NCBI GenBank assembly: GCA_014237365.1
Contig: JABZFQ010000250.1
Span: forward strand, 1-40,504
Direction of reading: 5' to 3'
Length of the DNA stretch: 40,504 nucleotides
Origin: Desulfobacteraceae bacterium
GTDB taxonomy: Bacteria; Desulfobacterota; Desulfobacteria; Desulfobacterales; ETH-SRB1
The notes beneath the pieces are model-generated. The model was not told the DNA's origin. It was given only the letters and a program-made list of their open reading frames with translations, and did not search any database. Within the stretch, counting starts at the first letter, position 1. Each line of letters begins with the position of its first letter. Positions 8,169-31,829 of this stretch are shown here, piece by piece. The translations under genes and the position numbers were made by a program.

Positions 8169-8216
8169 AAATTAATGTTTTTTATTTTTTAATTATTAAT
8201 ATAAGGAGTAATGGTT

Positions 8217-9389
8217 ATGTACAAACGAAATGGGATTATAATTGGAATTACGCTCTTTTTAGCAATGTTCATTCTTAATTCTAATGCTTTTGCAATAAGC
8301 CGGGAAACCGAACAACTGCTGAAAATTCTGGAAAAGAAAAATATCATTACCGACAAAGAATCTGCCGACATGAAGCAGGAAATGGAATCTTCTTCGCAAA
8401 CTGGAGACAAGGAAGCCTATGATGGCTTGCTTGGTAAATGGGCGGATAAAATACTTCCCAGCGCTTGCATAGAGGTCGAGGCTTCTTATGAAGACTACAA
8501 TTTTCATGATCCATCAGTAAGAGACACGGACACAAGTGATTTTGTTCTTGCAACAGTCGAAATCGGCTTTGATGTTGATATTGCAAAGCATGTTAAAGCA
8601 AGTCTTTTCTTTTTATATGAAGAAGACGATACAGAATTTGATGTGGACCAGGGAATCATCACAATTGATGGAGCGGATGTGGTGCCTCTTTATGTTGATT
8701 TAGGGAAAATGTATATCCCTTTTGGAAAATTTGAGAGCCATTTTATTAGAGATCCTCTTACCTTGGAGCTTGGAGAAACAAACGAAAGCGCTGTTGTTGG
8801 AGGTTTCAGGAATGACCTGCTGGAACTTTCCGTTGGTGTCTTCAATGGAGATATAGATGAAACAGGAGAGGATGATCATATAGATAATTACCTTGCAAGC
8901 GCATGTTTTACTCTTCCGGAAACAACAGTACCTGATTTGGGTTTAACTGCCGGAATATCATGGGTATCAAACATTGCCGACAGTGACAGCCTTCAGGAAG
9001 AATTAGCGGGAGCAGGAACAATCAAAAATCATGTTGACGGGTTCAATGCATTCATAATTGCTTCTTTTCTGGATAGATTTTTCTTCAATGCAGAATATCT
9101 CGGAGCCATTAATCATATTGAAATGGATACGTTTGACGAAGGGGAATCCTATAAACCGGAAGCCTGGACTATCGAGCTTGCTTATGGTGTTACCGACAGT
9201 CTGAATCTTGCTGTTTGTTATGAGGGAAGTGATGACTGTGATGATTTTCTGCCCCAAAAACAATTTGGCGGTGTCGTCAGTTATGATCTGTTGGAAAACA
9301 CATCTGTTGCGCTTGAATACTTATACGGCAAATTTGAAAATAAAGACACAAGGCATTTGATGACTACCATGCTTGCTATAGAATTCTAA
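8217..9389 (+). CDS. LbtU-like siderophore porin, outer membrane
   Basis: A 390-aa outer-membrane protein with an N-terminal signal peptide (cut near NAFA-ISRETE). A short coiled-coil-like stretch (TEQLLKILEKKNIITDKE) follows, then a series of amphipathic beta strands ending in a terminal Phe (LAIEF), as expected for a beta-barrel. It resembles the LbtU family, first known from Legionella as a TonB-independent siderophore import porin. The acidic loops (DFVLATVEIGFDVDI, SDDCDDF) fit a cation-handling channel. I chose the ATG at 8217 because AAGGAG lies eight bases upstream; an ATG at 8211 would be too close to that site. Its place downstream of iron and nickel genes agrees with iron uptake, but its substrate is not shown. 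Confidence 0.75.
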   Translation: MYKRNGIIIGITLFLAMFILNSNAFAISRETEQLLKILEKKNIITDKESADMKQEMESSSQTGDKEAYDGLLGKWADKILPSACIEVEASYEDYNFHDPSVRDTDTSDFVLATVEIGFDVDIAKHVKASLFFLYEEDDTEFDVDQGIITIDGADVVPLYVDLGKMYIPFGKFESHFIRDPLTLELGETNESAVVGGFRNDLLELSVGVFNGDIDETGEDDHIDNYLASACFTLPETTVPDLGLTAGISWVSNIADSDSLQEELAGAGTIKNHVDGFNAFIIASFLDRFFFNAEYLGAINHIEMDTFDEGESYKPEAWTIELAYGVTDSLNLAVCYEGSDDCDDFLPQKQFGGVVSYDLLENTSVALEYLYGKFENKDTRHLMTTMLAIEF

Positions 9390-10751: not shown

Positions 10752-11897
10752 TCACACGATATCAAAAAGTTCCTGGATAATCTGTTTGTCTGTGGTCAGC
10801 CTCTGGATTATGGTTGTTTTGCCTGTTTCGGCCTTTTCGCCAAGGAGGAGGAGTTTGAGTCCCAATGGTACGATTTCTTTGTGGTAGCGGATCATCTCGG
10901 TTAGAATGCCGGCAAAATTGTCGATACTGCGATTCATGAATTCTGTCAACTTGAACCTGTTTTGTCTGAGGTTTTTAAGTAAGTAGGTAACGCAGGAACT
11001 CAGCATGGCATAAGATTGAATTTTGGATAAGCTTTTGAATTGAATCGAAGTATGGTTGCTGAGGATTTCTGCGGCATTCCATTTGGCGTACAGCTCATAA
11101 TATTCTATAAATCTGGTGGTTGCCTCTGTGCCGACATGACCTGTCAAAATGGTAAACATGATCTGATTGCTCAGGGATTCTCCAAAGGAATCAATGGTCA
11201 TAGAGGCATAGCTCCACGATCTTGGAGATGGCCATGACCCGGATTCTATCGGTTTTCCTGTAAGAAATTCCGGATAGTTCTGGAGGAAGGTGATGATATC
11301 GCTTCGGATTCCATTTTTTAATGCGTAATCTTGCATCCACTGGTCAACGTCTGCATGGAGCTCGACAAAAAACATCCGATTGGCAACAGGCGCAAGAATT
11401 TCCTGGAAACCGGCTTTATCATTACCCCTGTTGCCTGCTAAAATAATGGCAACATTTTTTGGCAGCCTGTGGTCGTGGATAGATCTATAGGTTAAAAGCT
11501 GAAACATATAGGCCTGAATCTGGCGGTTGCACAGATGGGCATCATCCAGAAACATAATAATCGCATCTTGATCGGATTTTGGGAAAACCTCTAGATGATT
11601 GAAGTTAAAGATTTCCGGCCTCGACCACACGATAAACTCAGTCTTTGTATCCTCTTCCTTTCCAATCTTTGGCAGTCCTGTAATTTGTTCCAGCATGATC
11701 GTGGCCATATAAACCACCTTCAGGCCCCAGCCCCTGTCTTTGCAAATCTGACGAATCACTTCGGATTTCCCAATGCCCGGTGCGCCTGACAGCCAGGGTA
11801 TAGAAGACAAATGCCCATTATGGTTTGCATCGCACTGAAGCATAATGCTTCGGTCCACAAAGCTTGTTGCCTGATTCAAGTTCAGGGTCGTTTCCAT
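10752..11897 (-). CDS. MoxR-like AAA+ ATPase
   Basis: A 381-aa AAA+ ATPase. Walker A GAPGIGKS is at residues 38-45, the Walker B segment IIMFLDDAH at 113-121, and a sensor-type LAGNRGND near 155-160. MoxR-type ATPases act with VWA-domain proteins as chaperones or assembly factors. Here the gene directly downstream of a VWA/metallopeptidase-like gene on the same strand supports that pairing. The C-terminal region (about 250-381) is helical and ends with a second GKTTI-like loop (EKAETGKTTIIQRL), which may be coincidence. An aaggagat ribosome binding site precedes the start. It is the last gene of the minus-strand cluster. Confidence 0.8.
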   Translation of the reverse strand: METTLNLNQATSFVDRSIMLQCDANHNGHLSSIPWLSGAPGIGKSEVIRQICKDRGWGLKVVYMATIMLEQITGLPKIGKEEDTKTEFIVWSRPEIFNFNHLEVFPKSDQDAIIMFLDDAHLCNRQIQAYMFQLLTYRSIHDHRLPKNVAIILAGNRGNDKAGFQEILAPVANRMFFVELHADVDQWMQDYALKNGIRSDIITFLQNYPEFLTGKPIESGSWPSPRSWSYASMTIDSFGESLSNQIMFTILTGHVGTEATTRFIEYYELYAKWNAAEILSNHTSIQFKSLSKIQSYAMLSSCVTYLLKNLRQNRFKLTEFMNRSIDNFAGILTEMIRYHKEIVPLGLKLLLLGEKAETGKTTIIQRLTTDKQIIQELFDIV

Positions 11898-11967: not shown

Positions 11968-13398
11968 CTAACGGAAGTTAATTACCTTTCCTATTATTCC
12001 TTCCGGCAATGATCCGGCATTTGTAAGATATATTTTTGGTATAAAACCGGGGAGTAAATCTTGAGATTTCGGGATGTCAGACTCCATATCGGTAATACCT
12101 ATATAGGCTGAGACTAAATCCCCTTCATTAGACCTGACGTACCGCATAATTTCTTTAAAAACATTTCTATGAGAAGTACCCCCTGAGTGTCTTCTCTCGA
12201 GCAATGTCTTTTTTTCACAGGGTCCTATGTTTTCGTATTCTTTAGTCCAGGTAACATTTACATCATGTTTGATCACATAGATTTTTTTGTATTTGTTTTT
12301 AGCCTGACAGATAATATCTATAGCGCTGGCGACTGTCCTGTCAGACATCGATGCCGATTCATCAATACTCATAATAATGGTTCCCAGCCTCGGTTCTTCT
12401 GTGTAGCTTGGCAGGTAGGGAAGTCTGTCTGCGTTAACCAGCCAGGATAGCCTTGGTTTGCTCCATGTCAGTTCGGCAGATCTGTCTAAAGCCCTGTTCA
12501 GGGAGTCTCTCAATATCCTTTTCCAGTCAACTTTTACACCAGACAACAAACTTAAGAATTTTCTTGATTCCATTGAAGTCTGGTCACGAAGCGCTTCTTC
12601 AAACATTCGTTTAAACAGGAATATTTCATTTTTTTGCTGTTTCGTTGATTCAAAGAAAAGATCCTTATCTTTTGGCCTTACAGGTGAATTGCCTTCAACG
12701 TCCTCTTTGATCCCTTCTTGTTCATCATCGTTTTTTTCGTCAAAAAACTCTTTGTCATCAGATGATTGACTGCCCATTGTAGGCATGCCTTTAATATCAG
12801 TTCGTCTGATTGTTTCTTTGCGAAGCATAACTTCAGATCGAACAACGCGTGGCATTCCATTCAGATGTTGTTTAGACAAGGCATTGTTTTTGTCTTCGGA
12901 GAACATATCCTGCGTGACCCTGGAAATAATGTCGGAGGTTTTAGCAAGTTCGTCATATATTTCCTCTTCCAGCATGCTGGAGTATTTGGAATCAAACAGG
13001 AAACGGTCCTCACCTGAAAACATCTTGTGAGGATCATATTTGATCAGGTTTTCGTCAAACAGTCTGCTGAGGTAGAGGAGAAGACCGTTAACCATATAAT
13101 CGGTGGCCATATCCCACAGTGTATGATCCCGTTGTTTGCGCCTTGCATCATGAAAAAACATTATGTGGCAAATTTCGTGTAATAAAAGGAAGGTTACAGC
13201 CTCTTCATTGTTTCTGGCCTTCAGAAACCTGCTCTTTTTATTAAGGTAGATGGTATCTGTCCCTCTGAAAACGGTAATGTCTTCATCCAGATTCAGAAAA
13301 TGTATGTCATAATTCAAAAGAGCGAGCCCCATTGGCAAGCAATTGGGATCTCTAAGCATTCTGGAAATAATTCTTTTTATGATTCCATTTGCATCCAT
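11968..13398 (-). CDS. Metallopeptidase-like and VWA-domain protein (DUF2201 type)
   Basis: A 476-aa protein with two parts. The N-terminal part has a zinc-protease signature HEICH at residues 74-78, plus His83, in a helical context typical of the metallopeptidase-like DUF2201 domain. The middle (about 190-260) is acidic and low in complexity, probably a flexible linker. The C-terminal part (from about residue 340) is VWA-like with MIDAS motif DESAS at 346-350, a later GGTS threonine, and an Asp in GITDMESD, so metal-dependent ligand binding looks intact. The pair with the next gene, a MoxR ATPase, is a known combination. Whether the HEICH site is catalytic is not known. Confidence 0.8.
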   Translation of the reverse strand: MDANGIIKRIISRMLRDPNCLPMGLALLNYDIHFLNLDEDITVFRGTDTIYLNKKSRFLKARNNEEAVTFLLLHEICHIMFFHDARRKQRDHTLWDMATDYMVNGLLLYLSRLFDENLIKYDPHKMFSGEDRFLFDSKYSSMLEEEIYDELAKTSDIISRVTQDMFSEDKNNALSKQHLNGMPRVVRSEVMLRKETIRRTDIKGMPTMGSQSSDDKEFFDEKNDDEQEGIKEDVEGNSPVRPKDKDLFFESTKQQKNEIFLFKRMFEEALRDQTSMESRKFLSLLSGVKVDWKRILRDSLNRALDRSAELTWSKPRLSWLVNADRLPYLPSYTEEPRLGTIIMSIDESASMSDRTVASAIDIICQAKNKYKKIYVIKHDVNVTWTKEYENIGPCEKKTLLERRHSGGTSHRNVFKEIMRYVRSNEGDLVSAYIGITDMESDIPKSQDLLPGFIPKIYLTNAGSLPEGIIGKVINFR

Positions 13399-13474
13399 TT
13401 TTCGTTTCTCGTTACTGGTTTCTCGTTGCTGTCTAATCTTCTAATCTTCAGCCTTCAGCCTTTGACAGGAGCGT

Positions 13475-14098
13475 TCACTTTGCCAGTTTATATAAGAGAT
13501 AATCCTGTGCCCAAATATCTTTGAAATCTCCACAGTGCATCTTGAGCAGCTCGCATAATCTGTCGGTCAGTTGAAAATAGTCTGTGCAATACCAAATCGG
13601 AAAATAAGCAACGCAGTATCGGATCAGTATCTCCTCAACACTTATATTGCCAAAGAGGAATTTTGTGCCCCAGGGGAGTTTTTCATCATCCCACCAGGTT
13701 TCAAATTTGTCATTGAAATCTTTAATAAGGTATATAATATTTGTTTCCCAGGGAAAGGATTTCGGATCCCACCAGGAGTCGAAATGCTCTTTGCAATAAT
13801 TCATCAAAAATCTTGTTGACCGCGGTTTCCAGTCGAATCTTTCAGGATCCCACCAGATGTGGAAATATTGACGGCAGTAACGAATCAGGTCGCTGCTCGA
13901 CTGCCAGTTATACCTGTCAGAATCCCACCACTGCTCAAAGTGGTGACTACAATATCTTGGCAAGTACTTGCTGTACGTCCAATCAAATTTTTCCGGATTC
14001 CACCACTGGCGAAAGTCAGAGTCAGTGTGAACATCAAAACCCTTCAAAAAGCGATAATCGAACCGGTTTTCACTATATCTATGCATTTCCATAGTCAT
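13475..14098 (-). CDS. Trp-rich WWDP tandem-repeat protein, unknown
   Basis: A 207-aa protein built of tandem repeats of about 25-27 residues. The core is F-x-x-W-W-[DN]-x-[ED]-[KR]-[FY]-x-W. Clear copies are at 29-40, 54-65, 79-90, 106-117 and 132-143, with degenerate copies near 166-177 and 192-203. Each core is preceded by a helix-like stretch often ending in YC (for example IRYCRQYF). I do not recognise the family. The start at 14098 overlaps the stop of the 33-aa membrane peptide (ATGA), so it is probably translated by coupling. A longer frame from 14161 would read through that peptide in another phase and is less likely. Repeats of this kind usually bind a partner; none can be named. 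Confidence 0.65.
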   Translation of the reverse strand: MTMEMHRYSENRFDYRFLKGFDVHTDSDFRQWWNPEKFDWTYSKYLPRYCSHHFEQWWDSDRYNWQSSSDLIRYCRQYFHIWWDPERFDWKPRSTRFLMNYCKEHFDSWWDPKSFPWETNIIYLIKDFNDKFETWWDDEKLPWGTKFLFGNISVEEILIRYCVAYFPIWYCTDYFQLTDRLCELLKMHCGDFKDIWAQDYLLYKLAK

Positions 14099-14196
14099 TC
14101 TAATAATGCCCAAATAACCATAAACAGCATTCCTGCCACGCTGCCAACATATACGATCCATCCGATTCTGTCTAGTTTATTGATTGTTTCCATCAT
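14095..14196 (-). CDS. 33-aa single-span membrane peptide
   Basis: A short frame of 33 codons encodes MMETINKLDRIGW followed by one hydrophobic segment of about 19 residues (IVYVGSVAGMLFMVIWALL) and a final Glu. The start has an excellent ribosome binding site (aaaggagaccgtgc). The TGA overlaps the ATG of the WWDP-repeat gene. Start signal, composition and coupling support a real gene. Function is unknown; it may anchor the operon products at the membrane. Confidence 0.6.
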   Translation of the reverse strand: MMETINKLDRIGWIVYVGSVAGMLFMVIWALLE

Positions 14197-14243: not shown

Positions 14244-14438
14244 CTATTTGGGTTCAATATCCTGTTTTGAAAAGCATCGGCGATCAATTTCAGCTTTTAT
14301 CTTGGCGCTCAAGCTGTTTCTTTGATTCAGGTGTGAACCGAAATTAATGTATCCTGGCTGGATACCTGAACTGTTACCGGAGCAAGTTGCAGAAAGGATA
14401 GCCCTCTCGAAAAGCTGTTTTGACTCTTTGGTTGTCAT
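14244..14438 (-). CDS. Unknown 64-aa protein
   Basis: This small gene starts at an ATG that overlaps the stop of the HTH gene (ATGA) and has an aaaggagatat ribosome binding site. The protein is hydrophilic, with a Ser/Gly/Asn-rich middle (ATCSGNSSGIQPGYINFGS) and a charged C-terminal helix (SAKIKAEIDRR). No family is recognised. Its position and start signal, not its sequence, support it. Confidence 0.55.
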   Translation of the reverse strand: MTTKESKQLFERAILSATCSGNSSGIQPGYINFGSHLNQRNSLSAKIKAEIDRRCFSKQDIEPK

Positions 14439-15232
14439 GATATCTCCTTTGTCTGGTTTTTAGGGGTCAGCAGATGCCAGGCCTCCTTGAATAAGGAGTA
14501 CTTGCTTTTACCAGGCCATGCATCGGGTAAAAGGTAAATTCTGTATTTTGGCATGGCAAGCCGCGGAATAATGTAATGGATACTTTCTCCATTGTTTCTG
14601 CAAACGCAAATGATAAAGTCAAAATTTTGACTTGCTTCAGTTGTATTGGTGATGCGGAAATATCGCTTTTTTCCGATCATGAGAGGCGTTGAGGTACACT
14701 TGAGAAGAAGCTTGTAACCGTTCGTCAAAATTTCATACGGATGTTCCCGAGTTCTGAGATGTGGAGTTAAGCCCATGGACTCCATTTTTGTTTTGACCTT
14801 TATCAATAGATCAAGACGTTTGGATTTTTTCCTGTTAGCAAGCCTTTTGCGCCTTCTTAGTTTTATCTTGCTTTGGAAGGCTTCAGTATAGGGGTATCCA
14901 TAGACCTTTTTATATACCTGCCGGGCGTATTCTCTGGAAAACCCGAAATGTCTGGCTACGCCAGCCAGACTATTGTCTGGATTCTCTATGATGTTTTTAA
15001 ATTTCTTCACAGCGCCGGCACCGTAAGTCCGTTCAAACTGTCTTAGAAATCCGGCAGTCTTCTTTATTTCAAAGGTTTTTTTCAACTTTCCGATAAATGA
15101 CCCATTTACATTTAAAATGCCGGCTAGCTCGTAATTGTAAAGGTTTTCCATCTCTACTTTCTGTTTGATAAATTTATATAGTTCCATATTAAATTGCTCT
15201 TTTACATAAGCTTCCAGTTGTATCGTCGTCAT
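14435..15232 (-). CDS. HTH protein with a possible nuclease-like C-terminal domain
   Basis: A 265-aa protein. Residues about 70-120 contain a sigma-region-4-like helix-turn-helix (SLAGVARHFGFSREYARQVYKKVYG). A strongly basic linker follows (KIKLRRRKRLANRKKSKR). The C-terminal domain has a beta-rich pattern with EILTNGYKLLLKC, KKRYFRI and NFDFIICVCRNNGESIHYIIPR. This looks like the core of PD-(D/E)xK-type nuclease-like folds, but I cannot align an intact D...ExK triad, so this is only a suggestion. I prefer the ATG at 15232, which has gagg seven bases upstream, over a GTG at 15244. It may regulate the operon or bind foreign DNA. Confidence 0.6.
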   Translation of the reverse strand: MTTIQLEAYVKEQFNMELYKFIKQKVEMENLYNYELAGILNVNGSFIGKLKKTFEIKKTAGFLRQFERTYGAGAVKKFKNIIENPDNSLAGVARHFGFSREYARQVYKKVYGYPYTEAFQSKIKLRRRKRLANRKKSKRLDLLIKVKTKMESMGLTPHLRTREHPYEILTNGYKLLLKCTSTPLMIGKKRYFRITNTTEASQNFDFIICVCRNNGESIHYIIPRLAMPKYRIYLLPDAWPGKSKYSLFKEAWHLLTPKNQTKEIS

Positions 15233-15310
15233 CTTAAACCTCACATTTTTCAGTTTATATAAATTTTCTGGTGCGTATCTCCGCGGTTCACTCCGCGTTC
15301 CTAAACATTA

Positions 15311-15712
15311 TCAATTCGTTTTTGTATTTTTTGATAATGCCTGTGAAATAGAGCTCAAACTGGAGCTGGGAAGCATATGGACGCGCTTGCAATATTTTTT
15401 GCATAGCTTTTTGACGTTTAAACAGGCATTGTGGCTATTGCAGTTGACCGGGCACAAAACCATGTCCGAGCGCCTGACCAGTACCTCCAGGCCATGTTTT
15501 CCCCAACCATCATGATATTCAAAGACAGCGCCTTTTTTTTCGATTGCCCGGCGGTAAAATGCTTTGATTTTGGTTATTCCACCTACAATAAGAATACGTT
15601 TTCCGCAAAAATCGAATAATGGACAAGCCTCTGCTCCCAATGTTCGTTTTTGCACCGGTCCTAGTTTACGATTACGCCTGTTGTTGCGGGCTTGAACGTT
15701 AGTAACCTGCAT
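15311..15712 (-). CDS. DUF2325-family protein, first gene of the operon
   Basis: This 133-aa protein has the DUF2325 core: a Rossmann-like first strand KRILIVGGITKIKAFYRRAIE, then FEYHDGW, then SDMVLCPVNCNSHNACLNVKKLCKK, and a final YCKRVHMLPSSSLSSI. DUF2325 proteins are small and of unknown function, often encoded beside regulators or defence-type genes. Cysteines in ACPLFDFCGK and CPVNCNSHNAC could bind metal. A strong ribosome binding site (aaaaggaggaatatca) precedes the ATG at 15712. Further upstream are a 159-bp inverted repeat and a structured leader with terminator, suggesting regulation by attenuation. Confidence 0.75.
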   Translation of the reverse strand: MQVTNVQARNNRRNRKLGPVQKRTLGAEACPLFDFCGKRILIVGGITKIKAFYRRAIEKKGAVFEYHDGWGKHGLEVLVRRSDMVLCPVNCNSHNACLNVKKLCKKYCKRVHMLPSSSLSSISQALSKNTKTN

Positions 15713-16562: not shown

Positions 16563-16960
16563 TCAATTTGCTTCCATGTCAGCAACAAAGCGGCAGGGCA
16601 CACCCAAGACAGCCGCTGAAGTTTCTAATACTTCATCACAAATCACTATTTCCATTCCAGCCCCGAAGCAGCACGCCAAGTGTAAGGCATCGAGGGTACG
16701 AAGAGCTGTTTTTCTGGAAGAAATCCACTTTTGCGTTTGTCGATAGTATTTCGTACTGATGGAAAGCCGCCTGAACAGACCTGAACGGGTATCCTCTGCA
16801 AAGGCGTTTTCCACCAGACTGGCCTGCGCCTCAGTGATTTCCTTCATGCGGATCCAACGGGAAAGGGCATAAGCAAACTCCAATCCGGTAAGATCGCTGA
16901 TGCCAACGGGAAATCTGAGTGATGACAGAAAATCCTGTATCGTATGACTTATTATCTCAA
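16563..16960 (-). pseudogene. N-terminally truncated PIN-domain toxin-like gene
   Basis: The open frame from a Met at 16883 gives 106 aa, but PIN-like sequence continues upstream of it without a start (FLSSLRFPVGISDLTGLEFAYALSRW). The typical C-terminal half is present: TLDALHLACCFGAGMEIVICDEVLETSAAVLGV. The N-terminal segment with the first catalytic Asp (usual form YLDTS) is missing, and a stop closes the frame about 25 codons above the Met. It is therefore probably a dead type II toxin gene. No antitoxin partner is visible. Two MITE family 1 copies lie just beyond its 3' end. Confidence 0.65.
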
Positions 16961-17105: not shown

Positions 17106-17384
17106 TCAATTACTAACTGCTAATTGGTCTGAGGTTTTACGCTCAAATATCCTGTGATTAGCTATAAACTTACCTGAAACAGGTAATTGAATTTCCTCTT
17201 TCTTATCTATTATTCTGTGCTTAAAATTTAATATGGTAAGTCCTATAACTTCATCTGTATCCGGGTCCAACTGCAGAAAAATGTCATTGTCTGTATTGAA
17301 CCCTATTGCTTCTTTATTTTCCCCAAAATATAGATTCATTTCATCCGACATGGGATCATATTTGTATGTTAGTCTTTTTTCCAT
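17106..17384 (-). CDS. DUF2283-family small protein
   Basis: A 92-aa protein with the DUF2283 pattern: LTYKYDPMSDEMNLYFGE, a middle strand set with DNDIFLQLDPDTDEVIGLTILNF, and a short tail. The ATG at 17384 has an aaggagat ribosome binding site. DUF2283 proteins are small, of unknown function, and often occur beside toxin-antitoxin-like genes, as here near a PIN remnant. A complete MITE family 1 copy begins 26 bases upstream of the start and may separate it from its promoter. Confidence 0.75.
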   Translation of the reverse strand: MEKRLTYKYDPMSDEMNLYFGENKEAIGFNTDNDIFLQLDPDTDEVIGLTILNFKHRIIDKKEEIQLPVSGKFIANHRIFERKTSDQLAVSN

Positions 17385-24685: not shown

Positions 24686-25150
24686 TTACTCAGGCATAGG
24701 TTTCACAATTGTATGACTTTGTACAGACATCCAGACTTTTGCGATTGATCCGGCGGCAAAAAGAAAATTTTGGCTTAACGACTTTTTTTCTGGCAGCAGC
24801 ATTGGACAAATGTTACGTTTTTTTAGCGATTCCAATTCAATGATAAGATCATCTTGATCAAGATATTTTGAATAGAGTTCCGTTAAGTTGTTTTGATCCA
24901 ATCCGACCTCAACAAGTTTAAAGGGCGTGGGATGATTTTCCGATTTTGCATACACATGCAGCTCCCATACATCATGTAACTCATCAACCGCTGACATATT
25001 CGGGTTTGAGGGTATGACAGGGATATCCATTTGAGAAAAATGAATGCAGATATCAGGAGAACCGCTCGGTATCATGCTCAAGGTAAGCACAAGCAAAAAG
25101 GCAAGGTCAGTAAAAGCAAACAACCAAATATGATTCTGTTTGATTTTCAT
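24686..25150 (-). CDS. ExbD/TolR-like protein
   Basis: A 154-aa protein with an N-terminal membrane segment (HIWLFAFTDLAFLLVLTLSM) that has an Asp at position 15, the site of the proton-relay Asp in ExbD/TolR. A periplasmic domain follows, ending in SLSQNFLFAAGSIAKVWMS. It starts at an ATG overlapping the stop of the ExbB-like gene. The two would form the proton-driven motor that powers the TonB-like partner. Confidence 0.7.
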   Translation of the reverse strand: MKIKQNHIWLFAFTDLAFLLVLTLSMIPSGSPDICIHFSQMDIPVIPSNPNMSAVDELHDVWELHVYAKSENHPTPFKLVEVGLDQNNLTELYSKYLDQDDLIIELESLKKRNICPMLLPEKKSLSQNFLFAAGSIAKVWMSVQSHTIVKPMPE

Positions 25151-25827
25151 TTCTTGCCTTGATCTTGCTTATTATTGTTATCCTTTTTATATCTGTTTTC
25201 GGAAACGGCTGCCAGGCCTTCATCAATACGTTTCTGGGCAAGCGTATAAGAAATCCTTTTTATAAATTCAAGAAACGTATAACAAATCAAACCGATAAAT
25301 GTCGTATATAATGCCGTTGCTATACCACTAATCATAATTTCACTCTTTAAACCTTCAGTATTAGATAGAAAATGAATAACCATTCCCATAATTGTTCCAA
25401 TGAACCCCAACGGGGGCAGTATGTTCGCTAACATACTGATGGGTTCAAGAAATGTTCTTTCAAAATATCTCTCGGTGAATTGAAACGCCGCATCTCTGAT
25501 AAAAGCATCCGGTGGAATGATCTTATCAGCTCCTTGATCGTTTTCCTTTTCTTCTAAATAGTGCTTTTTTGCCTTTTCAAAGAAGGTTACGGCAATAACA
25601 AAAAGAGGGGTTTTTATGTTAATGTAAAAATTACCAAATGATCTTTTTTTTGCAATTTCGTCAGGGTTACAATATGCTAATATACAAAATGACTGATACG
25701 TTTTTATAAGAGCGGAACAAAATGTGATGATCATCAAACAATAGACAGCTATTTGTAATATGCCAGAATTTGTAGTTATAATATACGTTAATGTTTTGAT
25801 GATTGAATCAGCCAGAATATCAAACAT
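25147..25827 (-). CDS. ExbB/TolQ/MotA-like proton channel protein
   Basis: A 226-aa membrane protein with three hydrophobic segments. The conserved MotA/TolQ/ExbB core is clear: ISMLANILPPLGFIGTIMGMV followed by ISGIATALYTTFIGLICYTFLEF. The large cytoplasmic loop between segments one and two contains a long charged stretch (KKHYLEEKENDQGADK). It overlaps the lipoprotein gene by eight bases and the ExbD-like gene by four, so the genes form one translational unit. Confidence 0.8.
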   Translation of the reverse strand: MFDILADSIIKTLTYIITTNSGILQIAVYCLMIITFCSALIKTYQSFCILAYCNPDEIAKKRSFGNFYINIKTPLFVIAVTFFEKAKKHYLEEKENDQGADKIIPPDAFIRDAAFQFTERYFERTFLEPISMLANILPPLGFIGTIMGMVIHFLSNTEGLKSEIMISGIATALYTTFIGLICYTFLEFIKRISYTLAQKRIDEGLAAVSENRYKKDNNNKQDQGKK

Positions 25828-26500
25828 ATTGTCTCCCGATAATGTAACCCCTTTCCCCCAGCAATACCCCGTTCCTTACTTTTTTTGTATTCTTCTTGCC
25901 TTTTGTTTGAAATAAGATTTGATTTTGTAAATCCTTTATTCCCTCAGCAATTGTACTGAAACCAATATCAGTTTGATCAATTATTATATCTAAAACAGCC
26001 AAATCGTCTCCATAACGCTTATTGATTAGATTGAGATAATCTTGGGCCTGATTATACAGAGCTAAATCAAAATATAAAATAACGGTAAGTAAATGAAGTT
26101 TTGCAATTTCCAGCTTTGTTTCTAAATGCTGAATTGCTTCAGAATCATTTAGAATCGGCTTGACGTAGATTTTAATATATTTTCTTGCCTCACGGCAAAG
26201 CTCCTCCCTAATGCCAAGAGATTCCTCGCGTTTGCCGGCGTTATCAGCAATCGAAGCAAATAGCTTGAGTGTGTTTTTTGTACTCTGGATATATATTTTT
26301 TTCTTTTTAATATCCCTGTAAGGTAATATCATTGGTATTACAGGCACAGTCAACTTCTTTTTCGAATCAGGAGGCTCAAGAAAAACATCGTGAACGAATT
26401 TTTTTTTCAAATCTATAGGTTTAAAAACGACATTGTAACCACAAGCGGAAAAAAGGAACAGTGATACTATCGTTATTAAGATCATCTTTTTTGATTGCAT
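25820..26500 (-). CDS. Predicted lipoprotein, first gene of the Exb/Tol-like operon
   Basis: A 226-aa protein with a lipoprotein signal (lipobox FSAC, Cys20) followed by GYNVVFKPI. The mature part is helical and may be TPR-like (for example IAKLHLLTVILYFDLALYN, QDYLNLINKRYGDDL). I do not recognise the family. It is expected in the outer membrane or periplasmic face. The start has an agaggg ribosome binding site. Confidence 0.7.
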   Translation of the reverse strand: MQSKKMILITIVSLFLFSACGYNVVFKPIDLKKKFVHDVFLEPPDSKKKLTVPVIPMILPYRDIKKKKIYIQSTKNTLKLFASIADNAGKREESLGIREELCREARKYIKIYVKPILNDSEAIQHLETKLEIAKLHLLTVILYFDLALYNQAQDYLNLINKRYGDDLAVLDIIIDQTDIGFSTIAEGIKDLQNQILFQTKGKKNTKKVRNGVLLGERGYIIGRQYV

Positions 26501-27229
26501 GCGTTCCCTCTCTGGTTATGTTCAACTGACTTAGGAACATGGACGAAATAATTTAACCTTTTACACAAATAGCAGATTTCAGATTTTGCTAGTTCGAATC
26601 ACGCTGTGATTCCAAAGTGATAATTAACAATATATTTAAGTTGTTAACTGATATCCTATCTTTTACACAGAGGCGTATGTCACATATTTGTTTATCAGGT
26701 ATCCATATTTCACAGGTATCGGATAAAAAGCGCCTTTTATTGCTTAACTCGGGTCAAATACCCCGCCGCTTGCGGCGTTTTAAAGATCGAAGTTCCGTAA
26801 CAATACCCCGCTTGAGCGAAGCGAAAGTCGAGCCTAAGGATTCGCCCAAAAATAACTTCACATTTTGATGCGTCGATCCATCCCGCATGAACTGCGTTGC
26901 TCGTCGGTTAAATAGCTCGCTATTCGCCCTCCTCGCGCCTTGTCATGCGAGCGCCTCGACACCTGAAAATGTAAATTTATTTTTGGGCGAATTCTAAGCG
27001 AGAGGGCTTGCCCCGGGGAATTTTATTCTGCCTTTGCGTAAAAAATTAAAAACGCCCTAAAATTAATCAATAAATGGATTCTGTGTCAAGACAAAAATGC
27101 AGCAATTCTAATTATGGCTTTCGGGGTAGTACCTACAAAACAATGCTGATCAATAATTTCAATAAGTTATATATCATGTCTTCTGGCAACACATAGCGAA
27201 AAACCAGTTCTTTATAAAGTAAAACAGGG
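26501..27229. other. Intergenic region filled with repeat remnants
   Basis: No gene is supported. It holds one worn end of MITE family 1 (26531-26555), two GC-rich words of the type ATACCCCGC with short palindromes (CCGCCGCTTGCGGCG near 26763), a complete MITE family 2 copy, and AT-rich sequence. The family 2 copy splits what looks like one GC-rich hairpin (ACCCCGCTTGAGCG... before, ...GGCTTGCCCCGGGG after). Confidence 0.6.
26835..26997. mobile_element. MITE family 2, complete copy
   Basis: A 163-bp inverted-repeat element. Left end TAAGGATTCGCCCAAAAATA and right end TTAGAATTCGCCCAAAAATA (complement), continuing with ACATTTT on both sides. It carries no gene. A second, incomplete copy is at 21110-21213. 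Confidence 0.8.
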
Positions 27230-30025
27230 TCAATGAAGAACCAATCCTGACGGAAGAGTTTCACCAAAAATGGCATTTTCTTCACTTTTAGCCATTGGAA
27301 TTACATCTTCCAAGAATTTTATATGAGGACCTAAAATATCATATTGATTCATCCAGTCTATGATAATGTCCACAATTGATGAATCAAGATCTTTCATTCT
27401 ATCACCGGTTTTGCGGGCAAGTTGAGCAATTGCCATGCCAACCGGTTTTGGATTGCGCCACGTCTTAGACAATATTTCTTCAATCCAGGAAGATATTTCT
27501 TCAGGTGGTATTACCCTGTCAACAGGGCCATAAAGAAGTTCACGAGCGCCTATTCGCGAAAGAGACCATAAATACTGGGGGTTGCATTTTTGGGGTTTAA
27601 TCTCTGAAAGAAGCATACGACCCCATTGAATCTTATCTTTTACCAGGAGCCTTTCCATATTCGCAACCGCCATCCAGATTTCCAGACGCTCCTGGTGCGG
27701 CAGTCTGATCTTTGTTCCCTTTTTAGGCATTATAATGGGAGCAAGTTCCTGAATGAACTGTCTTTGCTGACCTGCGCTAAGCCCCCCTGCCACTCTTCTC
27801 CACAATATCCACCATTCAGAACATACCTGTGCATTTTTTGAATGAATAGCGCCATTCTTATGAATTTTCCATAAACTCTTTACCCGATACTCATCAAAAC
27901 CATCTCCAAATCCAGGCCTCATACAAAATCCAGTTAGATTAAGCCACCTGCTTTCATGTTCAGGCCCGAAAGTGCGAGTTTCAACAAGTTTAATCAGTTC
28001 GTCGGAAATTCTCCGAATAAATCCAAGCGGCCATCTTTCCCTGGATCTTCCGACTTTTTTCATTATAACTTTGCTTAAATTTTTAAGCTCACTGCTATCT
28101 GTTCTGTCCGAAAAGATATTTCTAACATATGAACGAACTTCATCCACAATAGAGTCTTCAAATATTTCTTTATCAGCGATATCTACAGGTGTTAATGCAT
28201 CCCGCAATTGAAACTGTAGCTTCCACCTGTGATTGCTTATTAAAGAACGGCACCAGAGAGCAAGTGTGCCCATTTCAGTATAATCTGATTCAATCTGAAC
28301 GGGGAGCCTTGTCTTAACGCCCTTTTTCCCATACTGAACAACTGTTTGTATGGGCGGAAGGCAAGTTAGTGAATCATCTATTTCAACAAGGTCGCCGCAT
28401 CTGTCTCCTGAACGAAAGCTTGAGCTGTAAATATCAAAACTAACCGGCTGATTTGCAAGAACCTCAAATTTTTTATTCTTTAGCTCAATAGTTGTGCCCT
28501 CCTCAAGACCGCGTTCTACCAGACAAACAGCAAATTTTTTATCAGTCTTTTTTGGCAACCCTTCAATAGTATCTGACTCCTTTTTTGAAACACCTAGATA
28601 ATAAGCTCTTGCGCTTCCACTTCCAACCCGCACTCCCTTTCCAATTTTAACAAGGCCATAGTATGATGCACCAAGCGCTACAGAAAGATCATGATCTGTA
28701 TTTTCCAATACTTGAGGAAGATCTGAATCTCTTTTATTAAACCAGTAACCTATGGCTGCTCTTATTCTTTCTTGAATAACAGCAGGTTTTAATGATCCGC
28801 CATTAAAGAGGATAAGATCAGGAGCATGATCTTGTTTGTTTAATACTTTTATAACATCCTTTTTATGTTTATCCATGAAATAACCCAGATGCCTTGTTAT
28901 GGCCGGCTCCTGTTCATATGGAAGACCGAATTCAGTTATTCCTTCCCTGATATTTATTTTTTTTAACTCTTTTGGATCAGCAAGCGGGAAAAAACCTTCC
29001 AACACTGTTTTCTCAATCTCTTTACGTCCAAGTTCTGCTGAAACCGTTCCCGCAATAAGCTTGCTTCCCTCCCCCATTAATGTAATTTTTTCTGATTCCG
29101 CGTTTTTGTTTAAAATATTTTCCTTGGCCTTTCTGCACTGATGGCATAGAGTTCTCCACCTGTTCCCGCTTAAAGATATTCTTTTTTTGGACAAACGCCG
29201 TTCTATATTGCTTGCAAGTGCAAGATCAATATTGTCACCTCCGAGGATTAAATGATCTCCAACCGCTATTCTCTCAAACCTGGGGCTTCCATCCACCTCT
29301 CTCAAAGTTATCAATGTAAAATCAGTAGTTCCGCCCCCAACATCGCAGACAAGAATAAGCTCATTCGGATTTACAAATTTATTCCAATTGTGCTCATGAC
29401 GAATCAACCAGCTATAAAAAGCTGCAAGAGGTTCTTCCAGTAAAATCACATTGCTTAAACCCGCCATTGATGCAGCTTCAACTGTAAGGTCACGCGCAAT
29501 CTCATCAAAAGAGGCCGGCACAGTTATAATTATTATCTGGTTTTCAAGGTATAGATCCTCATCATCACCTTTTGAGCTGTTCCATGCTTTTTTTATATGC
29601 TTCAGGTATGATGCAGTGGCTTTAACAGGCGAAATTTTAAATACCTCATCATCTGCGCCCCATGGAAGAATTCGGGCATTTCTATCTACATTACTGTGAC
29701 AAAGCCAGCTTTTTGCAGATGATACAAGCCTGCCAGGTACTTTTGCCCCATGATTTCGTGCAAAAACTCCGACAAGATTTTTTTCATCGCTTATCCATGG
29801 AAGTGATACATCTTCCTGTGAAATATCATACTTTCCAGGGATATAGAGAAACGATGGTAAAACCGGAAGTCCGGAAACTTCTCCAAAACCTGTAAGCTGA
29901 GGAACTTTAAATATTTTTATTTTAAACTTTTTTTTTGCATCCGCCAGAAGATTCACATATGACACCGCGGAATTGGTAGTCCCTAAATCAATACCTATTA
30001 TGAAATGTTTCTCAAGAAGATCCAA
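27230..30025 (-). CDS. Hsp70-family protein with a DUF3731-type C-terminal extension
   Basis: A protein of about 931 aa. The N-terminal Hsp70 ATPase domain starts FIIGIDLGTTNSAVSYV, and the second phosphate loop LVCDVGGGTTDFTLI and the ILFNGGS loop are present. The C-terminal 350 residues replace the normal substrate-binding domain with a helical region (RERWPLGFIRRISDELIKL, EHESRWLNLTGFCMRPGFGDGFDE, SEWWILWRRVAGGLS) typical of the DUF3731 extension. I prefer a TTG start at 30025, with ggagaaag upstream, over an ATG at 30109 that would overlap the previous gene by 98 bases. It follows another Hsp70 and a DUF2760 gene, a known but uncharacterised grouping. Confidence 0.8.
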   Translation of the reverse strand: MDLLEKHFIIGIDLGTTNSAVSYVNLLADAKKKFKIKIFKVPQLTGFGEVSGLPVLPSFLYIPGKYDISQEDVSLPWISDEKNLVGVFARNHGAKVPGRLVSSAKSWLCHSNVDRNARILPWGADDEVFKISPVKATASYLKHIKKAWNSSKGDDEDLYLENQIIIITVPASFDEIARDLTVEAASMAGLSNVILLEEPLAAFYSWLIRHEHNWNKFVNPNELILVCDVGGGTTDFTLITLREVDGSPRFERIAVGDHLILGGDNIDLALASNIERRLSKKRISLSGNRWRTLCHQCRKAKENILNKNAESEKITLMGEGSKLIAGTVSAELGRKEIEKTVLEGFFPLADPKELKKINIREGITEFGLPYEQEPAITRHLGYFMDKHKKDVIKVLNKQDHAPDLILFNGGSLKPAVIQERIRAAIGYWFNKRDSDLPQVLENTDHDLSVALGASYYGLVKIGKGVRVGSGSARAYYLGVSKKESDTIEGLPKKTDKKFAVCLVERGLEEGTTIELKNKKFEVLANQPVSFDIYSSSFRSGDRCGDLVEIDDSLTCLPPIQTVVQYGKKGVKTRLPVQIESDYTEMGTLALWCRSLISNHRWKLQFQLRDALTPVDIADKEIFEDSIVDEVRSYVRNIFSDRTDSSELKNLSKVIMKKVGRSRERWPLGFIRRISDELIKLVETRTFGPEHESRWLNLTGFCMRPGFGDGFDEYRVKSLWKIHKNGAIHSKNAQVCSEWWILWRRVAGGLSAGQQRQFIQELAPIIMPKKGTKIRLPHQERLEIWMAVANMERLLVKDKIQWGRMLLSEIKPQKCNPQYLWSLSRIGARELLYGPVDRVIPPEEISSWIEEILSKTWRNPKPVGMAIAQLARKTGDRMKDLDSSIVDIIIDWMNQYDILGPHIKFLEDVIPMAKSEENAIFGETLPSGLVLH

Positions 30026-31829
30026 AATTTTCTTTCTCCCTAACGTTGAACTCCAGTTTCCATCTGCGGTCATCCTTCCTGGCAACACACCATAATTCAA
30101 GAGTTCCAACTTCTGTTATATCTATTTCGAGGTTTACGGGAATAACGCTGCCATAATCTCCATCCAGCGTGGTCTCAATTGTTGCTATTTCATTAATTTC
30201 ATCTTCCCAGTCATCAATAATTGTACCGAATGAATCTTCAGTTCTTAATGATGATCCTAAAAAGTCAAATTTTACAGGTTCACCCACCACTATAATAAAT
30301 TCCTGATTTTCAAGTTTTGCTTTGGTTCCTTCTTCCATACCAAAAGGTGCAACACAAAGTGCCCTTGTTGGAGCAGGCATACCTGGTACCGCGGGCATTG
30401 ATGCAGCTATGCTGATGTAGTATGATCGGCCAAGGCCGCTACGAATACGTATGCCGTCTCCGCGTCTTGCCAGACCATAATAAACTGCCCCCCTTGCAAC
30501 AGACAAATCAAAGTCTTTTGTATCAATCTCTTTGATAGATGAGGAGCTTCTATATCCAGCCCAAGATGATAATACTTCCTTTATGCGTTTTCTTATAGGA
30601 TCTGCTTTCATAACGCCGCCATTAAAAAGAATGGCATTTGGCAGCCTGTAATTTTTACCATCAATTTTCTGTCTGCCAAGAAAGGATGCAAGATGGTGAG
30701 TGATTGCCGGGTCTGCTTCATATGAAAGGCCAATCTCTTTTAGACCTGTCTTTTGATTTGTTATGGGCTCGGCAGTTATCTCACACTTTGGGAAAAAACC
30801 GTCAAGAATAAGCTGCTGCACCTCATTCATTGAAAGTTCTGTCTTAATTGTTCCCCCTATCAAGCTGCTTCCTCTGCCCAGTATTGTTACAGGACAGTTC
30901 TTTTTTTCAGGATCAGACAATACGTTTTCCTTTGCTTTGCGGCAACTGTGCCAAAGACCACGCATCTGCCATGAATCAAGTTTAGTGCCTTTTGCAGCCA
31001 TATGTTTTGAAATAGAATACGCAATGGCCAGATCCATGTTATCACCTCCAACAAGAAGATGATCGCCAACAGCTATCCTTTCCAGTAAAAGTTCACCATC
31101 ATTATCAGAAACGTTGATCAGGCTGAAATCACTTGTGCCTCCGCCGATATCGCATACAAGGACAAGATCACCCTCTTTAATGCTATCTCTCCATTGATTG
31201 CCTGAAGATTCGATCCATGCATAAAATGCAGCCTGTGGTTCTTCAAGCAAAGAAACATTAGATAGACCTGCAAGACCGGCAGATTTTACAGTAAGTTCTC
31301 TTGCAACAGCATCAAACGAGGCAGGAACGGTCAAAAAAATCTCCTGATTTTGAATTAATAGTTTTTCATCATCCCCAGCTATTATGTTATTCCATGCATC
31401 GCGAATATGCCGCAATATGGCTGCTGAAGCCTCAACCGGCGAAAGCTTTGGCTCTTTGTCCCTACCTCCCCATGGCAGAACCTGCTTATTTCTGTCAATC
31501 ATTGTGTTGCAAAGCCAGGATTTGGATGAAGAAATCAGGCTGTCTGGGATTTCAGCGCCTCTATCTCTGGCATGCTCGCCAACAACATAATGAATTTCAT
31601 TATTCCATGGCAGATTAAGCGCCTCATCCATAGCATCGTTTTTTTCGTTCATAAGAATAAAAGAAGGCAGTATTTCTCTTTTCTCTACTGTTCCTTGGCC
31701 TACTAACTGAGGTATCATAAGCATCTTTATATTGGGAGTTTCACCTTTTATAATATTAGCTTCAGTATATGCTGCAACACTATTGGTTGTACCTAAATCT
31801 ATCCCAATTATATAAACTGGTTCAGACAA
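30012..31829 (-). CDS. Hsp70-family (DnaK-like) protein
   Basis: A 605-aa Hsp70 relative starting YIIGIDLGTTNSVAAYTE, with LVCDIGGGTSDFSLI and AILFNGGVMKA. The ATPase fold looks intact. The C-terminal part is beta-rich (DFLGSSLRTEDSFGTIIDDW) and lacks the normal lid, so it is not the general chaperone DnaK. It is distinct from, but similar throughout its ATPase domain to, its downstream neighbour, suggesting an old duplication. It would act with the DUF2760 and DUF3731 partners. Confidence 0.85.
   Translation of the reverse strand: MSEPVYIIGIDLGTTNSVAAYTEANIIKGETPNIKMLMIPQLVGQGTVEKREILPSFILMNEKNDAMDEALNLPWNNEIHYVVGEHARDRGAEIPDSLISSSKSWLCNTMIDRNKQVLPWGGRDKEPKLSPVEASAAILRHIRDAWNNIIAGDDEKLLIQNQEIFLTVPASFDAVARELTVKSAGLAGLSNVSLLEEPQAAFYAWIESSGNQWRDSIKEGDLVLVCDIGGGTSDFSLINVSDNDGELLLERIAVGDHLLVGGDNMDLAIAYSISKHMAAKGTKLDSWQMRGLWHSCRKAKENVLSDPEKKNCPVTILGRGSSLIGGTIKTELSMNEVQQLILDGFFPKCEITAEPITNQKTGLKEIGLSYEADPAITHHLASFLGRQKIDGKNYRLPNAILFNGGVMKADPIRKRIKEVLSSWAGYRSSSSIKEIDTKDFDLSVARGAVYYGLARRGDGIRIRSGLGRSYYISIAASMPAVPGMPAPTRALCVAPFGMEEGTKAKLENQEFIIVVGEPVKFDFLGSSLRTEDSFGTIIDDWEDEINEIATIETTLDGDYGSVIPVNLEIDITEVGTLELWCVARKDDRRWKLEFNVREKENFGSS

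Follow-up and report, generated by a model that had tools for sequence, protein, structure and literature searches.

The window, a 40,504-nucleotide stretch of a Desulfobacteraceae genome, carries on its minus strand a gene for a tryptophan-rich repeat protein, here called W (14098..13475, stop included). The open frame extends from 14161 to 13475 (228 aa), and translation most likely begins at the ATG at 14098, the coordinate of the original prediction, which gives a protein of 207 aa. Seventeen of these residues (8.2%) are Trp. WW occurs at residues 32, 57, 82, 109, and 135 (spacings of 25, 25, 27, and 26), and two degenerate copies follow, one with WY at 169 and one with a lone W at 196; in the DNA, the five WW[DN] cores fall at 13691..14005 (-). 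The original prediction, made from the letters of the DNA, had described just this arrangement of five repeats 25–27 residues apart and two degenerate copies, and the pattern proved real. At least two WW[DN] motifs arose in 27 of 100,000 composition-preserving shuffles, and W itself has five. A unit of the form S..LA.YCS..FD.WWDPEKFNW, with a period of 25–26 residues, recurred over about 20 relatives (the L027 row was left out of this comparison), and repeat number varied from 5 to 13 units among homologues. Tandem Repeats Finder detected no DNA-level tandem repeat within the gene, so the protein repeats must be old. Against four homologues, W had dN/dS values of 0.19–0.32, a sign of purifying selection that identifies it as a functional protein gene.

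We modeled W with AlphaFold2, using as input a 13-row alignment of the window protein with bacterial and phage relatives (mean pLDDT 85.3, pTM 0.76). From about residue 40 onward, pLDDT was about 90 or higher, except for a lower block at 141–150. Each repeat of ∼25 residues was modeled as a helix of ∼10 residues, a break, a second helix of ∼7 residues, and a loop. The W gene product is thus predicted to be a short α-solenoid of ∼25-residue Trp-rich repeats, and the earlier guess of a helix-turn repeat or small solenoid agrees with this confident two-helix model. A disordered chain had been named as one outcome that would refute the repeat reading; only residues 1–24 were predicted to be disordered. 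The other such outcome, a match to a named repeat family, did not occur either, since no curated model matched W. Searches of Pfam, NCBIfam, PADLOC, PHROG, and PDB sequences with the W protein returned no family match (in Pfam, nothing at E ≤ 1 for the window protein); for one phage relative, Pfam gave only PRESAN, below cut-off. Structural searches gave a similar picture. Foldseek found no near match to the model in the PDB (best E 0.79) and nothing better than E 1.5 among the BFVD viral models. VIA-align reached a best Z of 6.5 (CRM1, PUF, and PPR-like proteins), the level of common helical arrangements, with no convincing Z for any named repeat family. W therefore resembles the known α-solenoids (ankyrin, TPR, HEAT, PUF, and PPR) in its predicted stacked two-helix repeats but differs from them in its short repeat, just ∼25 residues long and built around WW[DN]P, in the lack of a curated-model match, and in structural matches that are only weak. 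A search of open-licence papers for Trp-rich repeats in phages or for WWDP returned nothing relevant. W proteins form an apparently new repeat family of predicted small helical solenoids, common to a few Desulfobacterales and large uncultured phages.

W is the first gene of a cassette; neither this operon nor the link to phages was part of the original prediction. Downstream on the same strand lies a protein with a zincin-type metallopeptidase domain and a vWA domain (11968..13398; DUF2201_N, E 6.4e-19; phrog_1314, E 3.1e-34), with the zincin motif HEICHIMFFH (HExxHxxxxH) at 13179..13150 and the MIDAS motif DESAS (DxSxS) at 12363..12349. The metallopeptidase domain is N-terminal, and the gene stands beside that of a MoxR-type AAA+ ATPase (10752..11897, minus strand; phrog_1297, E 1.1e-56), as in the phage MoxR-MPTase-vWA system. 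The ATPase has a Walker A motif GAPGIGKS (11786..11763), a Walker B motif LDDAH (11549..11535), and a sensor 1 AGN. The spacer between W and the vWA gene (13404-13462) contains short imperfect tandem repeats, and its length differs between genomes (about 360 bp in L014).

Two small ORFs precede W on the minus strand. The nearer encodes a 32-aa peptide with a single transmembrane segment (METINKLDRIGWIVYVGSVAGMLFMVIWALLE; 14193..14095) in another frame than W, its TGA stop sharing the tetranucleotide ATGA with the W start. Both the peptide and the overlap are conserved in L011, L013, and L014, making four genomes with the window; the ORF is too short for ordinary ORF calling. The other, of 64 aa (MTTKESKQLFER...DIEPK; 14244..14438), starts on the stop of an upstream helix-turn-helix (HTH) gene and is kept in L011, in L014, and in part in L013, and also in L192 and L193. 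The HTH gene encodes a predicted DNA-binding protein (14435..15244, minus strand; HTH_AraC below cut-off, E 0.00096, with a weak match to a PHROG DNA-binding family) and occurs in only part of the bacterial W loci. A DUF2325 gene (15311..15712, minus strand) flanks the cassette and accompanies it in most bacterial loci with enough flanking sequence, the L051 deletion scar included.

W homologues occurred in about ten Desulfobacterales chromosomes of three families, and one came from a MAG labeled EthSRB1. They were present in 8 of 94 close-relative genomes (one being a remnant) and 9 of 389 genomes of the order; a spread of 395 genomes over the phylum returned the source genome alone, so the family is rare. 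Every bacterial locus with enough intact DNA had the order W, zincin-vWA, MoxR; the three genes share order and strand in the window, L011, L012/L053, L014, L048, L049, and L050, and in L048 the W stop overlaps the vWA start. Searching the 389 genomes with the MoxR protein gave the same distribution from the other side: members of its clade were found in 10 genomes at E ≤ 1e-120, the next best match being at 1e-26. Eight of these ten have W, the contig of one ends before W, and the last, G698 (L192), has lost W and the vWA gene by deletion and keeps MoxR, preceded only by what may be a piece of W and by a short sequence resembling an insert (L192:3538-4007). In the L051 remnant (8206-8560), about 50 W residues are joined to the MoxR C terminus in an apparent in-frame fusion, and L052 (1-530) holds another remnant of the deleted cassette. 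There are thus at least three independent deletion scars (L051, L052, and L192). The same position and the repeated remnants indicate a bacterial locus that is stable in place and repeatedly lost. A passing prophage in the window was rejected as an explanation: we saw by eye no phage structural genes among the neighboring ORFs, and the locus has the same flanks in L048 and L051.

Relatives of W were also found in ten uncultured IMG/VR viral contigs of large phages, using an alignment-based scan together with a degenerate DNA pattern; a first viral scan with the window W protein alone had found nothing. Searches by tblastn with the window and phage W proteins against GenBank phages, and with the window protein against plasmids, likewise returned nothing, but repeats of this kind may be masked by the low-complexity filter. 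The W protein is the same in L027, L028, and L030, and we treat these three of the ten contigs as near-copies. Paralogues stood in tandem in some contigs, with four in L016 and five ORFs in L026. A phrog_1297 MoxR and a phrog_1314 vWA protein occur together in eight of the ten contigs; the two without the pair are a 9.7-kb fragment and a 119.6-kb contig. In most of these phages, W is not adjacent to the MoxR-vWA genes. All vWA partners have the zincin HExxHxxxxH, and all but that of L028 have the DxSxS MIDAS. Phage partners of this kind, both in phrog_1314 and in GenBank, are widely annotated as HNH endonucleases; among the phrog_1314-type proteins examined, all had the zincin HExxH and all but one the vWA MIDAS, and judged by these motifs the HNH name looks wrong.

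The phylogeny of MoxR tied these phages to the bacterial loci. Seven of the eight W-phage MoxRs, 35–41% identical to the bacterial one and with LDDxH at Walker B, fell into a strongly supported clade with it, and the maximum-likelihood tree grouped the bacterial proteins with those of phages L017, L018, L020, L028, and L029 at 100/100 support. Outside this clade were the MoxRs of phage G, Phosso, VBP47, S-TIM66, two vequintaviruses, other Desulfobacterota, and the W-phage G476, which has a generic MoxR and four W paralogues lacking the C-terminal tail described below. Walker B is LDDxH in all W-clade MoxRs and LDE[LI]N in the others with a readable motif. When we used the window MoxR alone as a viral query, 14 contigs were found, 8 of them with W; the six without it are fragments of 15–55 kb. 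W was absent from all six complete phage genomes that have other MoxRs. By gene content and phylogeny, W is co-inherited with one MoxR-vWA clade across phages and chromosomes. The bacterial cassette presumably came from phages, a direction that the MoxR tree, rooted at midpoint only, does not itself fix.

W ends in a conserved C-terminal tail (WAQDYLLYKLAK; 13478..13513, minus strand), in which W196, D199, L201, Y203, and L205 are invariant over eight bacterial rows. With some variation, the form D..[IL][ILM][FYL]K[LI] ends the W proteins of bacteria and of clade-matched phages. In four phage contigs, the tail, in the form D..[IL][ML][FY]K[LI], is common to W and to small proteins of ∼95 aa. 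In G484 and G479, vWA and MoxR are followed by a series of ∼95-aa proteins with the ending ...LFKIEHDIA and then by W, and in G477 about fourteen tail-bearing small proteins flank W; arrays with diverse bodies lie at L106:3262-8663, L114:5073-6062, and L116:7848-11227. A fixed tail pattern ended 4–15% of ORFs in G477, G478, G484, and G479 compared with 0–0.6% of internal windows taken from those ORFs. Tail ORFs numbered 30 of 511 in five W-phages and 2 of 510 in four W-less phages with other MoxRs (Fisher p 1.7e-7), a value that is optimistic because these sequences had themselves served to derive the pattern and because Phosso, in which tails are present, lies outside the four. In the bacterial loci, W was the sole convincing match among 149 ORFs. 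We modeled one of the small proteins and obtained a small β-barrel whose last helix is the tail (pLDDT 88); Foldseek returned weak matches to bL19 and other small barrels (best E 0.01). The tail is thus the terminal helix in the models of both W and the small protein. Sinorhizobium phage Phosso (PV764938.1; L141, L142, and L159), a cultivated phage of 469 kb, has about 13 small proteins with D.MMLFKL-like tails, a MoxR-vWA pair of a different clade, and no W. Conversely, no tail proteins lay within 10 kb of MoxR in seven contigs of the clade (six of them without a W match). Given Phosso and these seven tail-less MoxR regions, the tail and the W-MoxR clade are not strictly coupled.

To our knowledge, ViaA has no zincin domain and RavA-ViaA no solenoid partner gene. 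What the cassette has in common with RavA-ViaA of Escherichia coli (PMC3893208, PMC10585395) is the combination of a MoxR ATPase with a vWA partner; the literature on RavA-ViaA and CbbQ-CbbO includes PMC3893208 and PMC4660213. Another related system is the MoxR-MPTase-vWA pair of group 2.2 jumbo phages, for which a part in virion assembly with peptide processing has been proposed, not shown (Iyer et al. 2021, PMC7824862). That pair likewise joins MoxR to a vWA protein with an N-terminal zincin domain; the system described here differs in its LDDxH clade, its third component W, and its three-gene chromosomal cassette, and we found no mention of a repeat partner in the passages of that paper examined. 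The vWA-MoxR ternary conflict systems with VMAP (Kaur et al. 2020, PMC7159879) also combine MoxR, vWA, and a variable third protein in one operon. In contrast to these, W has no Pfam match to VMAP or to an effector domain. The vWA protein carries a DUF2201_N zincin only, and we saw no effector fusions among the genes classified.

The predicted structure of W and its linkage to MoxR-vWA are well supported, and they suggest that W is a previously unnoticed third part of an ATP-driven MoxR-vWA machine. The best reading is that W serves this remodeling machine as an adaptor or as a dedicated client. To the more specific proposal, that the W solenoid makes up a third part of a MoxR-vWA machine of phage type in which the tail docks and the solenoid binds a client, we assign a probability of roughly one-half. 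W would then work physically with MoxR-vWA: the aromatic-rich surface of the solenoid would bind a client protein, the conserved C-terminal helix would dock on the metallopeptidase-vWA co-chaperone or on the MoxR ring, MoxR would remodel this client at the expense of ATP, and clipping by the zincin domain may follow. The ∼95-aa tail proteins of the phages would represent additional adaptors or clients, with virion assembly as their most likely setting, and these Desulfobacterales would have kept a minimal three-gene cassette of W, vWA, and MoxR and repurposed it. An extension in which the tail is a transferable docking tag, recruiting both W solenoids and small-barrel proteins to MoxR-vWA, with bacteria keeping the machine and one tagged adaptor, seems doubtful to us. 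How the widespread MoxR-vWA pairs of phages and bacteria choose their clients is poorly known; W and the shared tail are concrete, testable candidates for the recognition step, and they connect stable chromosomal loci of sulfate reducers with a little-known phage system for which a role in virion assembly has been proposed.

MoxR-vWA pairs such as RavA-ViaA and CbbQ-CbbO often mature a dedicated client, and W might be such a client, a structural solenoid whose assembly or insertion would require a chaperone, perhaps into the virion in the phages and into a membrane-linked assembly in the bacteria. The position of W ahead of vWA and MoxR in bacteria, the single-TM mini-protein coupled to it in four genomes, and the expansion of phage paralogues (in L016 and L026), which would suit a structural part, all point this way. 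But the bacteria keep the cassette without any other gene common to the W-phage regions searched, and a tail shared by many different small proteins looks more like a docking signal, so we hold the client role to be possible but tentative. The presence of the same MoxR clade and tail in phages and chromosomes would also be expected if the host had kept phage-derived W, vWA, and MoxR as a putative interference module that poisons or diverts the assembly of infecting relatives. An accessory locus of this sort would fit the patchy spread through the order and the repeated deletions, but PADLOC gave only weak partial matches to defense genes and no recognized defense genes lie beside the cassette, which makes this role unlikely. 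Sugar-binding repeats are typically rich in Trp, and on that ground W could be an extracellular carbohydrate- or cell-wall-binding protein; its α-helical model with Trp in every helix pair, the lack of an evident signal peptide (by eye), and operon partners, an ATPase and a vWA protein, that are expected in the cytoplasm together make this highly improbable. A putative adaptor role of W in the MoxR-vWA machine remains our preferred reading.

Elsewhere in the window, two small minus-strand genes at 16563-16883 and 17106-17384 resemble, by eye, a PIN-domain toxin and a DUF2283-type protein. Farther on, the minus-strand region 24686-31829 contains two adjacent Hsp70-like genes (27230-30109 and 30012-31829) close to what appears by eye to be a TolQ/ExbB- and ExbD-type membrane pair, an unusual combination.
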